Assembly (NCBI RefSeq): GCF_000754095.2
Contig: NZ_JQSG02000003.1
Coordinates: 113,397-177,396 of the forward strand
Direction of reading: 5' to 3'
Source: Acidihalobacter prosperus
GTDB taxonomy: Bacteria; Pseudomonadota; Gammaproteobacteria; DSM-5130; Acidihalobacteraceae
Length of the DNA: 64,000 nucleotides
The notes beneath the pieces are model-generated. The model had not been told where the DNA came from. It did no database searches and saw nothing but the letters and a program-made list of their open reading frames with translations. This document shows positions 59,171-63,929 of the stretch, piece after piece (the first letter of the stretch is position 1; each line of letters starts with the position of its first letter). The position numbers and the translations under genes are program-made.

Positions 59171-59467
59171 ATGCAAATGTTCACTCAGCAGGAGATCGAC
59201 GAACTCTCCGCCCTGCACTTCATCAACCAGATCGATGCGCACCTGCGCGTCGTCTCCAAGATTCGGATCGTTGCGGATACCGGCGACCGCCCGCCGCGGG
59301 TGATCCTGCTGCTGGAGCTGCTCTATGACAGGAGCCGCGTCGACCAGCTCAGCTTCGACCTGCACAACCACAGCTACGCAGACATCATCGAAGTGGCGCG
59401 CAACGTCGGCGACAACGAATACCTCATGTGCGAGATCGACAACCTGCTTTCCGGCCACGGCGAATGA
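59171..59467 (+). CDS. Hypothetical protein (98 residues)
   Basis: This is a small acidic cytoplasmic protein: QQEIDELSALHFINQIDAHLRVVSKIRIVADTGDRPPRVILLLELLYDRSRVDQLSFDLHNHSYADIIEVARNVG. It has alternating helix and strand and no known motif. The codon usage matches neighbouring housekeeping genes. It is the last normal-composition gene before the A/T-rich island at 59.5-63.2 kb. Confidence 0.6.
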   Translation: MQMFTQQEIDELSALHFINQIDAHLRVVSKIRIVADTGDRPPRVILLLELLYDRSRVDQLSFDLHNHSYADIIEVARNVGDNEYLMCEIDNLLSGHGE

Positions 59468-59891
59468 CGCCGCCTGTGTCTGATACGAGGTACTTTGCGG
59501 GCTTAATAGCAAGCTTGATCGGTTCAAACCCTGAGTCGATTAGAGCAGGATTGATTGGCCAACAAGGACACGTCTAGTATGAAATGGCAGGGCTGTTTCA
59601 CACGCCTTCAGCGACAACGTTTTTAATAGTTTCAGTGCGGGCGTGCGAACAAATAGGCTCGGGCGCGTCGCCGAGGTCAATCAAAGGCAAGGAAGCTAAT
59701 TCTCGCCCAAAACAGCATGTTGAATTTAATATATGAGCCAATGAAAATCACAATCAACCGATAATTGACTAGAGGCCAGAGGCTAATCCAGATATCCCGA
59801 CAGTCCGCTTCCGACCCCGAGCTGCCAGTTGCTTGTACGTGACACGCTGGTGGTTCCAGAGCCAACAGCGGCCGGCCGTTCAACGCTTGAG
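59468..59891. other. Gene-poor A/T-rich gap
   Basis: These 424 bases have no supported gene. A short open frame at 59677-59883 on the minus strand would need a TTG start and has a hydrophobic tail; it was not accepted. The composition change here marks the left edge of the island. Confidence 0.6.
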
Positions 59892-60596
59892 TTATGTGTC
59901 GCGGAATACTTGCTCCCGGTGAAAATGCATGTATTCCTGATGCTCGGCCTGCAGCTTGACCTTCATGTCTGGAGATACGCCCAATGTCCCTGGCTCTTGG
60001 AGTAATGGCGATATGAGCACCTTCCCAGCAGCATCAAAAGAGATAAGGCCCGAATCAAATGCCTTGTCCAACGTTGGGAGCAAGAGCAAACCATTAAATC
60101 GATCAAGGCGTTCAGCATTAGATGATGCCCGCCACGGCTTGATGTGCGAGGCCACTAGCATTGAAGTGTCTTTGTAGCCAGTAACTGCGCACCCACCCCA
60201 CAAAGCGATCAGTTTCTGCCTGAAATTGCCTTGCCCGATTCTCGTTTTGAGCAAGGAAGCTTTTTCCGTATTGGAAGCATATCCATCTTCCATGATCGCT
60301 TCCACATCTGACTCAATGTCAGAATCGAACCCTTCTTGCAGGTACTCGGCGTACTTGTTCAGTGCGCTGTTGTACATGTTATGGCCCCGTTCATTTCGCT
60401 CCTGGTAGATCGGAAGCTTTCGGAGGCCGATAACAATTGATTGGAATCGGCTGTGGCTGAGAAGCGATGTAAGCGGTCCATCCATGAGGCCACCATTAAC
60501 GGCCCACTCGGACATAACACCGCTAACTGCACCCTCGTACTTCCTGACTGAGGATTCAGATAAGCCCCGGTGCCTCATCCATTCTTCGAACGTCAC
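59892..60596 (-). CDS. HNH endonuclease (HNH_2 domain)
   Basis: This 234-residue protein has an N-terminal helical part (FEEWMRHRGLSESSVRKYEGAVSGVMSEW) that resembles a recombinase-like core-binding domain, and a C-terminal HNH_2 domain with GGCAVTG, SHIKPW (His151), NAERLDRFNGLLL (Asn168) and LDKAFDSGLISFD. Such modules occur in methylation-dependent or R-M-associated nucleases. The start is GTG 60596, with AGGATG upstream. It is downstream of the AIPR gene with a gap containing an attC-like stem. The base composition is A/T-rich, a sign of transfer. Confidence 0.85.
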   Translation of the reverse strand: MTFEEWMRHRGLSESSVRKYEGAVSGVMSEWAVNGGLMDGPLTSLLSHSRFQSIVIGLRKLPIYQERNERGHNMYNSALNKYAEYLQEGFDSDIESDVEAIMEDGYASNTEKASLLKTRIGQGNFRQKLIALWGGCAVTGYKDTSMLVASHIKPWRASSNAERLDRFNGLLLLPTLDKAFDSGLISFDAAGKVLISPLLQEPGTLGVSPDMKVKLQAEHQEYMHFHREQVFRDT

Positions 60597-60614
60597 TTCA
60601 CCATCCTGCCTAGT

Positions 60615-60665
60615 GATATATAACGCCGCGGCGAAGCCGTCGGCGAAAGTGACTCGTTAGCCTAT
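60615..60665 (-). repeat. Weak attC-like site between AIPR and HNH genes
   Basis: On the minus strand GGCTAAC (R''-like) is followed by a stem CGCCG-A-CGGC/TTC/GCCG-CGGCG with one unpaired A, then GTTATAT. The stem with an extrahelical base matches attC design. The right spacer is missing and the R' box deviates from GTTRRRY, so it is only suggestive. Confidence 0.3.
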
Positions 60666-60729
60666 CGGCTCGTTCTACAGACATCTCTACCCATCCCTTC
60701 CGTCCCAAGACAAAACGGTAGGACAATTT

Positions 60730-62496
60730 TTATGCGAACTCGACCTTGGCTGCAAACGCATTGAATGTCGCCTGCTGAAGATTTGCGAACGACGCGAATA
60801 TTCCAATAAAGTTGGGAATGGTTTTCTTTACGCCCTCTGTCGTAACTCGACCTTTGGTAAAAGCGCCTTCCAGCTGACCGCATAGCGGTAGCATTATATC
60901 CAAGATAGGATCCCATTCTTCAGTCATCTTAAATGGCGACCTATTAATCCTAAATCGAACATCGAATTTATTCGGAATCGGCCTCCCAATTATGGTTTCT
61001 AAACACTGAGCAACGGTATATATAAGCAGGAACTGAGAGCCCTTTTTATTCAAGAATTCCAAAGTGTTTTTTTCTACCGTTGTCAAAGAGGAGGGATCTG
61101 CCTTCTGCTTCCCTATCAATCGGAGCCTCCGGTTACTTATTGCTTCCAATATGGAAAAGCAGAAGACAATATGTCGCGCACTTGTTCTGTCTGTGAATAC
61201 GCGGCCGTAGTTATTATCATCTATCCAAATTTCCGACTTTTTATCATATGCCACTACTGGATCACCGTGAAAGGCAGCTAGAGACTGCCCGACAGTATAG
61301 GACGGGAGGGTGTACTTACTCCTCCGGATGGCGTCACTTGCCCCCCCACGACGCCCCCCTTCATATTCGGCATCAGGGACCCCGGAAAATTCCTGCCGCA
61401 ATCGCTCCTGCACTGCATCATTGCTTCGGAAATCTGCCGCCTCAAGCTTATTCTGAGAGTTATTATACTTAACGATTTTTTCAATTAGATCATCGCTATC
61501 AGCCTTGACGAAGCGAACACCTACGAGAAGGTTTTCATCAACAGTGCCTTCAGTACTAGCGATTGATCCGGTGGTCTGCGCTCCGTTGACAATGGAGATG
61601 CCTGTAATCTTCAGGCGCCTGCCCTTATTTGTTTTCTTCGCATAGACATAGTCCAAAACTAACGAAGTAATCCCATTATTGTAGACTAGAAAGTTTTCGG
61701 GCTCATCGACCGTAGTTTTCTTAATTCCGTAGTTTATATTCTTATCGCTCGATCGGGAACCTAGATAACCTCGCAGGTTAGCGGAGAACAGATCGGTCTC
61801 GTATCTACTGTATAAATCCGCCAGCCACTTACCTGGTACAAACGTGCTAATCGATGCCCAGTTAGCCTCTTTGTGCTCAACTACGTCCGGAACTTGAACC
61901 TCGAAAGTGTCTGTTACGATTATCGCGCGCTCTGCTTTGGTATACAAAGTTTCAATTGCATCTGCCCCCATTTCCTTTGCAAAGACATTTACTTGCGATC
62001 CTCCGCTGTAGGAAGAAAGAGCACTGCGAACTGTCTGTTCTACAGTTTCTAGCTCCTTACGAACATTTTCAGAATGTGGCAGATTGTGGACGTACCAACA
62101 GTGAATTTGCTTGATATCTCCTGCCCGTATTGCATCCCGCAGTTCCTGGGCGCGACCGGCAAGTAACGGGTCGAGCGTCTGTATTTCTGCGCTGAGTAGC
62201 CAGCTTACGGCAGTGTTCAAGTCCGCAGCCTTGTTCGCCTTGGCGGCAACCTTTTTCGTCTGTGCCACATAGCATTGTGCAACGACGGCGACACCCATTT
62301 CTTTATCAATGTGCAGAACGTCGCACTTGCGATCATTGCCTCCACCAGTAATCGCCTCTGCGGCGATTGTTTTGATGTCATCTAAGTTGAAGCGCAATTG
62401 AATTGCAAATACACCGATGGCGTCATCGTCGAGACCGAAATTCGCTTTTGTCGTCTCGTAAGCGGCTTGCCATTTTTGACCTGGTGTTAAGTACAT
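60730..62496 (-). CDS. AIPR-family (abortive infection phage resistance) protein
   Basis: This 588-residue protein matches the AIPR family in length and style: AITGGGNDRKCDVLHIDKEMGVAVVAQCYVAQTK near the N-terminus, GYLGSRSSDKNINYGIKKTTVDEPENFLVYNNGITSLV in the middle, ISIVNGAQTTGSIAST, and VKYNNSQNKLEAADFRSNDAVQERLRQEF. AIPR proteins are linked to phage resistance. Start ATG 62496 has AGGA eight bases upstream. The A/T-rich codon usage contrasts with the flanks. The HNH gene follows 133 bases downstream on the same strand. Confidence 0.88.
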   Translation of the reverse strand: MYLTPGQKWQAAYETTKANFGLDDDAIGVFAIQLRFNLDDIKTIAAEAITGGGNDRKCDVLHIDKEMGVAVVAQCYVAQTKKVAAKANKAADLNTAVSWLLSAEIQTLDPLLAGRAQELRDAIRAGDIKQIHCWYVHNLPHSENVRKELETVEQTVRSALSSYSGGSQVNVFAKEMGADAIETLYTKAERAIIVTDTFEVQVPDVVEHKEANWASISTFVPGKWLADLYSRYETDLFSANLRGYLGSRSSDKNINYGIKKTTVDEPENFLVYNNGITSLVLDYVYAKKTNKGRRLKITGISIVNGAQTTGSIASTEGTVDENLLVGVRFVKADSDDLIEKIVKYNNSQNKLEAADFRSNDAVQERLRQEFSGVPDAEYEGGRRGGASDAIRRSKYTLPSYTVGQSLAAFHGDPVVAYDKKSEIWIDDNNYGRVFTDRTSARHIVFCFSILEAISNRRLRLIGKQKADPSSLTTVEKNTLEFLNKKGSQFLLIYTVAQCLETIIGRPIPNKFDVRFRINRSPFKMTEEWDPILDIMLPLCGQLEGAFTKGRVTTEGVKKTIPNFIGIFASFANLQQATFNAFAAKVEFA

Positions 62497-62698
62497 TCGT
62501 TATTTCCTGTATACGTTCAACAAAACAAATGCCGATGCGAGTGGATTCGACAGTAAATGTAGGTTCATAGGAGATTCTGGTTTTGGACGGTGACCCACTA
62601 CCGCCAAGTATTCTCACGAGAAAGCATCTAGCTGATGGAGGACTAACCGACCATAGCTTCGTGAACGGTACTTTGTCCTCAACTGGCCCTCTCAACAT
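62423..62698 (-). CDS. Possible small gene between attC-like site and AIPR gene
   Basis: This is a 91-codon open frame starting ATG 62698, 12 bases after the attC-like R' box, and overlapping the AIPR start by 74 bases. It has a central region IGICFVERIQEITNVLNTRSKMASRL and a basic tail. No family is recognised and the large overlap with AIPR lowers confidence. It may be a leader ORF or chance. Confidence 0.3.
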   Translation of the reverse strand: MLRGPVEDKVPFTKLWSVSPPSARCFLVRILGGSGSPSKTRISYEPTFTVESTRIGICFVERIQEITNVLNTRSKMASRLRDDKSEFRSRR

Positions 62699-62709
62699 AA
62701 GACCGAAGA

Positions 62710-62796
62710 GCCTAACGTAGAGCCAACAGGCGCGGCGCGGCTTTGTCGCGCAGCGTCCAGCGACTGAGGGGAGCGAGGTTGAGCCCCATGTTAGAA
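62710..62796 (-). repeat. attC-like integron recombination site
   Basis: Read on the minus strand: R'' TTCTAAC (62796-62790), spacer ATGGG, L'' GCTCAAC, a GC-rich central part with GCGCG/CGCGC stem, L' GTTGGC, spacer TCTAC, R' GTTAGGC (62716-62710), exactly GTTRRRY. L'' and L' pair except for one extra T in L'', the position of the extrahelical base in real attC sites. R'' departs from RYYYAAC at the first base. A stop codon (TAA 62800-62798) sits one base before R'', as in gene cassettes. Confidence 0.55.
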
Positions 62797-62797
62797 C

Positions 62798-62863
62798 TTA
62801 ACCGTGAGTGTTCCACGGCAGCTTAGCTTTGTGCTTGGCAATATTTGTTTCCTCGACGAACAT
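62798..62863 (-). other. 21-codon ORF ending at the attC-like site
   Basis: ATG 62863 to TAA 62798 encodes MFVEETNIAKHKAKLPWNTHG, ending one base before the R'' box, the layout of an integron cassette. It may be the tail of a longer, decayed frame that is open further upstream. GTTAGAA also occurs at its 5' side (62869-62875 on the minus strand). Confidence 0.3.
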
Positions 62864-62880
62864 GTGAGTTCTAACAGTAA

Positions 62881-62984
62881 ATATAGAGACCGACGGGTCC
62901 GGACATCCTTTAATATAGAGACCCGCGAAAAAAGAGATTAACCATCGGATCCTTCATCACCTTACCATCCCTCTGTCTCTATAT
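62881..62984. repeat. Decamer ATATAGAGAC, two direct and one inverted copy
   Basis: Copies at 62881-62890 and 62913-62922 are direct, 32 bp apart, sharing AATATAGAGACC; the copy at 62975-62984 is inverted (GTCTCTATAT). Together the second and third can form a stem on either strand. The function is unknown. Confidence 0.5.
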
Positions 62985-63216
62985 GCATGCATGAAAACGG
63001 GGACATGACGTTGACGCCAATCAACCATAAGGTTAACGACTGGTTCCAGCCGCAACTCTGCCGTCCAACGGCTTGATAGGGAAGGAGCATGAGCGGCCGG
63101 ATGTGGCCGTTTTCTGCCATCCCACTGAGAAAACATCCAATAAACAACCCACGGTTCAGAATCGAAATAATAAGGCATCAATCAACCTGCATTTCTCTAT
63201 TACCAAGAGAAGTCAC

Positions 63217-63582
63217 TTATTCTCCTGCCACCCACGCTTTCGCCATCTCCAAAGCATCATTCCCAAACAACCTCACCTCCCCGGGAATCGTGAACCCGAA
63301 ATATTTCACCCCGGCATGTATCCACGGCACATCGGTGACGACGGCGACCTTTTCCCAGGCGGCGCGGTGGGCGAGGCCGACCTTGGCGTCGTCCCACATC
63401 GCGCCGGCGGTGAAGCCGGTCCATTCGGGGCCGATGTGGTACAGGAGGCGGATCTTGTCGTGTGCCTTGAGCGCCGCTTCGACGGCGGGTATGACGACGG
63501 TTTCGTAGTCCTCGGCGGTGACCTGGCCAGAGGCGGTCAGGCCCAGGACGCCGGGCGGGAGGTCGGGTATGAGTTCGATCAT
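63217..63582 (-). CDS. STAS/SEC14-like (SpoIIAA-like, DUF3478) protein
   Basis: This 121-residue protein matches the SpoIIAA-like family: GVLGLTASGQVTAEDYETVVIPAVEAALKAHDKIRLLYHIGPEWTGFTAGAMWDDAKVGLAHRAAWEKVAVVTDVPWIHAGVKYFGFTIPGEVRLF. The family has a STAS/SEC14-type fold; the role is unknown. ATG 63582 follows GGGAGA. The composition returns to the GC-rich norm, marking the right side of the island. Confidence 0.88.
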   Translation of the reverse strand: MIELIPDLPPGVLGLTASGQVTAEDYETVVIPAVEAALKAHDKIRLLYHIGPEWTGFTAGAMWDDAKVGLAHRAAWEKVAVVTDVPWIHAGVKYFGFTIPGEVRLFGNDALEMAKAWVAGE

Positions 63583-63929
63583 GGCGGTTTTCTCCCCTGC
63601 GTGGGCCCTCGTTTCGGGGCATTGTCGATGCGTGCGGCGTCTTGCCTTACCGCTCATAAGTAAGGCTGCTGGATGGCGCGAAAGTTCCTGCATAAATTCT
63701 GTGGCCAATAGTGCGGAACGGCAGAGCTGGCGCCGAAATTGCAGCTCGAATCTGTGGAATACTGGCCGGCAGTCGCGCCGATGTGGCCGGGCGGCCCGCG
63801 GCGCTGGCGCTGAGCGGGTCCGCCGGGCAGACTGAGCGCAACGACAGGCGCCCGGATGACGCGAAATAGGCCATCCGTGCACCACGAACCTACGACTGGA
63901 AAACCTCACACGCCCATGGATGCTGCGGC
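63583..63929. other. Gap before the last gene, no feature recognised
   Basis: These 347 bases lie between divergent genes and presumably hold promoters for both. I see no convincing ORF, repeat or RNA. Short frames on both strands have no ribosome site or family resemblance. Confidence 0.55.

Follow-up and report, generated by a model that had tools for sequence, protein, structure and literature searches.

A cassette array carrying AIPR and HNH nuclease genes within one copy of a repeated, intI-less pad in Acidihalobacter prosperus

Cassette arrays without an adjoining integrase gene (CALINs) are common, and their origin is debated: intI may have been lost, or the integron integrase (IntI) may act in trans on sites elsewhere. 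The array described here resembles those of Xanthomonas (PMC12444791) in its cassettes of one orientation, its attC, the absence of an adjoining intI and the presence of IntI elsewhere in the genome, but differs in having one clear attC (plus one degenerate) and in being seated in a repeated pad whose cut point does not vary. For an attI without intI the nearest precedent comes from Shewanella prophage M16-3 (PMC9892861), whose CALIN has a receptor site and no intI; that receptor duplicates the resident attI, whereas the pad here is a different sequence present in about ten copies. Cassettes also enter away from attI and attC at attG sites, as they do here, although attG is a short consensus at unrelated loci and the pad is one repeated 307-bp element. 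In the literature searched, which consisted mostly of papers available without subscription, neither a repeated pad other than attI nor any Acidihalobacter integron was found described.

The stretch of DNA analysed (the window, 64 kb) is C3:113397-177396 of the 3.36-Mb assembly G000 and was compared with two relatives of the same genus, G001 and G002. As the preliminary description had stated, A/T-rich genes on one strand lie amid GC-rich DNA (46–50% GC in the island, 62–70% across most of the window). Both island genes are on the minus strand and are flanked by convergent chromosomal genes:

59171–59467 (+), left chromosomal flank gene, 98 aa; the G002 copy is 97% identical and homology stops at 59468
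59892–60596 (−), HNH gene, 234 aa; HNH_2 (PF13391, E = 2.5e-12), HNH domain as in VcaM4I, stop codon overlapping R''
60730–62496 (−), AIPR gene, 588 aa; PF10592 (E = 6.8e-30), AbiU, phrog_1841
63217–63585 (−), right chromosomal flank gene, SpoIIAA-like (PF11964); found in G001 and G002 with other DNA beside both

The gene pair is not fixed at this locus in all relatives, as G001 and G002 differ beside the shared flank gene. The variable DNA beside their SpoIIAA-like gene (L034:5977-12502; L035:10583-13746) contains small toxin-antitoxin-like genes and a transposase inside a 105-aa gene, and marks the locus as a hotspot independent of the pad. An interspersed repeat unrelated to the pad (motif GCGTGTGAAA) is common to the three genomes, with partial copies at 59581–59732 of the window, L034:8541-8608 and L035:11353-11438.

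Two models for attC were built from class 1 integron plasmids and from IntI-adjacent arrays in other genomes of the class. The narrow model R1 (15 attCs) gave only 5–6 bits, 5.1 of them at 62710–62796 (−), and because it missed this site as well as an attC in the integron array of the same genome it was replaced by the broad model R2 (64 attCs, none from the window; G000 and G001 contributed six from their IntI-linked arrays). Three sites were distinguished:

62710–62796 (−), attC1; R2 34.3 bits, E = 3.3e-6 over 64 kb, model positions 1–71 of 71
60618–60662 (−), attC2, degenerate; R2 11.5 bits, E = 1.3, second-best in the 64-kb window and not significant by itself
59878–59897 (−), attC3 remnant, ACATAAC-TCAAGC-GTTGAAC; hairpin lost, recognised by sequence with 0 model matches

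The well-formed attC-like site announced before AIPR was therefore recovered at full length. The weaker site proposed between AIPR and HNH was found on the predicted strand and at the predicted position, with a score too low to carry it alone. Both ends of attC1 are nearly identical to those of an attC from an unrelated array in another genome (TTCTAACATGGsGCTCAACC ... GCTCTACGTTAGGC; L071:4749), and its inserted segment GTCGCTGGACGCTGCGCGAyAAAGC was found again in another attC (L086:4607). The stem of attC2 is 9 bp long and has an extrahelical A, and there is no spacer between L' and R'. A complete third attC 3' of HNH was not found by R2 in the window, where R boxes alone remain. Rfam returned no match, and folding of attC1 as single-stranded DNA was uninformative, with a z of about −0.4. 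Likely false positives of R2 reached 27.4 bits: L116:4233-4330 and L128:3899-3996 are near-identical sequences from two species, apparently within a conserved gene, and offer a calibration aid for home-made attC models in GC-rich DNA. Whole-genome R2 counts are lower bounds, since no more than 150 first-look candidates were scored per genome, and attC1 was not among these.

On the minus strand the order is pad, cut (G62875^T62874), cassette 1, AIPR cassette, HNH cassette, pad. AIPR and HNH each form a cassette of their own, and a third, almost gene-less one comes before them:

62716–62874 (−), cassette 1, 159 bp, longest frame 21 codons, carries attC1; R'' TTCTAAC against its own 5' end G+TTAGAA, 7/7 complementary
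60624–62715 (−), AIPR cassette, limits given by R' of attC1 and attC2, degenerate attC2 at the 3' end; R'' GGCTAAC against its own 5' end GTTAGGC, 6/7
59884–60623 (−), HNH cassette, with an attC remnant; R'' ACATAAC against its own 5' end GTTATAT, 6/7

The R''/L''/L'/R' hairpin that characterises the 3' end of an integron gene cassette is present in attC1 of cassette 1. The R'' box and the 5' end pair in the circular form of a cassette; the comparisons were made by eye, and since R boxes follow a common consensus their statistical weight is modest. Stop codons of cassette genes commonly overlap R'', as that of HNH does here. Together with attC1 and an insertion point that is the same across repeated pads, these matches bear out the proposal of a cassette array. 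The array is provisionally placed with the CALINs, and the earlier comparison with such elements was correct in that no intI lies beside it, with the qualification that CALINs are defined by at least two neighbouring attC sites and that it counts one clear attC and one degenerate. Judged from its sequence, the array is now partly fossil, with attC2 shortened and the hairpin of attC3 lost, and HNH is for these reasons probably fixed in place.

The AIPR domain scored 105.2 bits against a cut-off of 25, with a match to AbiU (E = 7.6e-29), and the protein is homologous over its full length to prophage-borne abortive-infection proteins ('Abi alpha-like', phrog_1841, E = 8.5e-122), with 41.6% identity to Klebsiella prophage genes; here it is carried as an integron cassette. 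Its predicted structure had a mean pLDDT of 50 and was set aside. Two further assignments were rejected on NCBIfam cut-offs, MzaE of the MZA system (68.3 bits, cut-off 1050) and a phosphorothioate-DNA restriction endonuclease (NF045808; 27.4 bits, cut-off 180). Residues 101–232 of the HNH protein match the HNH domain of the EVE-HNH nuclease VcaM4I (6yex; E = 2.9e-26), which was also the best fold match. The N-terminal reader of VcaM4I is replaced here by a domain of about 90 aa that weakly resembles integrase SAM domains and is predicted to be all-helical with pLDDT mostly above 90. The recombinase-like N-terminus of the preliminary description is consistent with this fold, although the Phage_int_SAM_5 matches of the protein and two relatives were sub-threshold (E = 0.0017 to 0.08). 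No AIPR gene was found within about 1.5 kb of HNH in any of 12 HNH relatives, nor an HNH gene beside AIPR in any of the six AIPR relatives examined. The neighbourhood comparison thus contradicted the suggested AIPR-HNH pair, and a two-gene defence system was rejected as the adjacency is not kept in the relatives examined; the adjacency reads as a product of cassette stacking. Phage defence by the two proteins is plausible from their families (prophage Abi and AbiU; modification-dependent restriction HNH). Integron cassettes as defence libraries are established by works cited in PMC12444791, so the cargo alone is not new.

G000 encodes one full-length IntI (C3:609572-610510; TIGR02249, 474 bits, cut-off 265), which lies on the same contig as the island at a distance of 434 kb, carries the catalytic motifs of IntI1 and is adjoined by an attI and at least three attCs. 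The observation that no integrase is seen was accurate within the window, but with a complete IntI/attI integron 434 kb away the term integrase-less is misleading. IntI and attI of G001 are almost identical to those of G000. No intI was found next to the array or any pad by profile search of G000 and its relatives. The first IntI-adjacent cassettes (L009:6685-9509) encode a CoiA-like nuclease and two proteins without a Pfam match. Other CALINs of the genus begin at intI-less copies of the resident attI (L114, L118, L122, L127); three of these adjoin the same cytosine-deaminase-like gene, in three species, and those of G000 (L114 = G000:C6:115.8-122.7 kb) hold at least about ten attCs.

The cassettes of the window interrupt a pad of about 307 bp (halves joined) at TTTACTG^TTGAACG:

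62875–63109 (−), left part of the pad, its last base being the G of G^TT (cut 62875/62874); 68–83% identity over 235 bp in the genus
59812–59883 (−), right part of the pad, ending GGGTCG; the same segment stands after the last cassette of other pads

Homology of the left part runs from CGGCCACATCC to TCGGTCTCTATATTTACTG and stops where the cassette begins TTAG or TTAT. About ten copies of this part, some partial and one on a plasmid, were found in three Acidihalobacter species:

G000: C3 (window), C2:488k, C6:872k
G001: 1640k, 3263k, 3289k
G002: 510k, 863k, 927k and a degenerate plasmid copy

The core is TTTACTG^TT in nine of the ten pads and TTTATTG^TT in the tenth (G000 C2). A search for the core pattern gave 11 matches in the three genomes compared to 0 for a reversed control pattern; a core match at G000 C1:549060, outside the ten pads and without the rest of the pad, was put aside as probably due to chance. 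After the cut each pad carries a different cassette, and an attC of at least 20 bits lies 3' of the pad in the same orientation in at least eight of ten copies, while for two it was absent among the matches listed. The right segment, GTTGAACGrCCGCTGTTGG to GGGTCG, follows the last cassette in six of ten. The pad ends are sharp (CGGCC at the start, GGGTCG at the end), with the same starting base in most copies. G000 and G002 share one orthologous pad (flank 95.7% over 2.75 kb) in which the cassettes are unrelated; this speaks for a pad that stays in place while its cassettes turn over. The plasmid copy, on pABPV6 of G002 (L129, C2:32.0 kb), is accompanied by an attC of 26 bits, and plasmid-borne pads are a possible route of spread.

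The survey within the genus covered these three genomes. Among 369 sampled genomes of the class, G000 and G002 included, the left part was absent from the 367 others, and the core had 0 matches in two genomes of a sister genus. Genome-contig and viral-contig collections gave no match to the pad core or to AIPR, and plasmid and phage collections gave none to the pad by blastn; these collections may omit the window's own or very near genomes. A promoter scan of the pad reported none; a weak TTAATC-18-TATATT was noted by eye. The preliminary description was right about a cassette array, right about the missing integrase within the window only, mistaken about an AIPR-HNH pair, and had overlooked the repeated pad.

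Pairwise identity between pads peaks in three blocks of the left part (0.94, 0.82 and 0.83, against 0.55–0.72 elsewhere), and the blocks hold GTSTCTA motifs, which in the window are:

62884–62890 (−), GTCTCTA, −16 from the cut
62916–62922 (−), direct repeat of GTCTCTA, −48 from the cut
near 62975–62981, inverted copy of GTCTCTA, −107 from the cut

The resident attI has GTGTCTA at −14 and an inverted copy at −53; this comparison was post hoc, made after the sequences had been inspected. The pad resembles an attI in taking up cassettes in one orientation at G^TT and in its short repeated motifs beside and upstream of the cut, but it lies away from intI in every copy, occurs many times per genome and is not similar by BLAST to the resident attI. 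A copy of that attI as the origin of the pad was for this last reason ruled out, although such copies do occur at other CALINs.

The most likely reading, to which we assign a probability of roughly 60%, is a three-cassette array (near-empty, AIPR, HNH) within one copy of a dispersed intI-less pad that is attI-like and served by IntI in trans, with a defensive cargo. IntI from the distant integron would act on the pad as on attI, and circular cassettes would recombine at its G^TT in a single orientation: HNH first, AIPR second and the small cassette third. The GTSTCTA repeats, which resemble IntI-binding repeats, may be what makes the pad attI-like, and the cargo would consist of an abortive-infection protein and a nuclease of the modification-dependent-restriction type. 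The good attC1, the intact IntI gene with attI and cassettes, and the pad in three genomes with differing cassettes at the same G^TT were observed directly. Against the action of IntI in trans are the two pads where a strong attC was absent among the matches listed, the lack of similarity between pad and resident attI, the failure to see an empty pad (TTTACTGTTGAACG) in the three genomes, and G002, in which a full-length IntI was not found, yet four pads are present.

The main rival, which we consider unlikely though far from negligible, also has IntI acting in trans but does not make the pad a dedicated site: the pad would be a small mobile element of an ordinary kind, similar to a MITE, bounded on either side by CG[GA]CC and spread on its own account, that happens to carry a good attG-type secondary site, which IntI uses opportunistically. 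The sharp ends of the pad suit such an element, and IntI is known to insert cassettes at attG (Loot et al., 2024, as cited in PMC11023631; PMC12444791); however, attG sites in E. coli are broadly scattered (PMC12444791) whereas every pad copy has one site, the copies share up to 307 bp rather than a short consensus at unrelated loci, and the three conserved internal blocks include motifs far from the cut. It is distinctly less probable that the pads are decayed ends of integrons that lost intI, that is, the true attI of a former second integron class. Copies of attI of the resident class do exist without intI at other CALINs, but no intI remnant was seen upstream of a pad, homology begins at the same base in most copies, and loss alone leaves the dispersal to about ten sites unexplained. 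That the attC-like sites are palindromes arisen by chance, with AIPR and HNH as ordinary genomic-island genes, is very improbable: the low R1 score and the insignificance of attC2 by itself would fit, but not 34.3 bits with R2, ends nearly identical to those of a genuine array's attC, R'' boxes fitting their own 5' ends or one insertion point across repeated pads.

With IntI acting in trans on an attI-like pad, a repeated and conserved pad that has one cut point and holds differing cassettes across three species would demonstrate a route dedicated to stocking in trans. The pad offers a way to test what makes a site an attI other than a neighbouring intI, and a simple DNA signature for finding cassette sites that integrase-centred searches miss. 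A recurring pad with differing cassettes at one cut point hints at a single integron system able to stock many chromosomal sites. We lean, by a small margin, towards regarding Acidihalobacter as having a distributed integron, in which one IntI may serve dispersed pads, both chromosomal and plasmid-borne, together with additional copies of attI, and cassettes, including those for defence, would be stocked and exchanged at many loci per genome, distant from the integrase.
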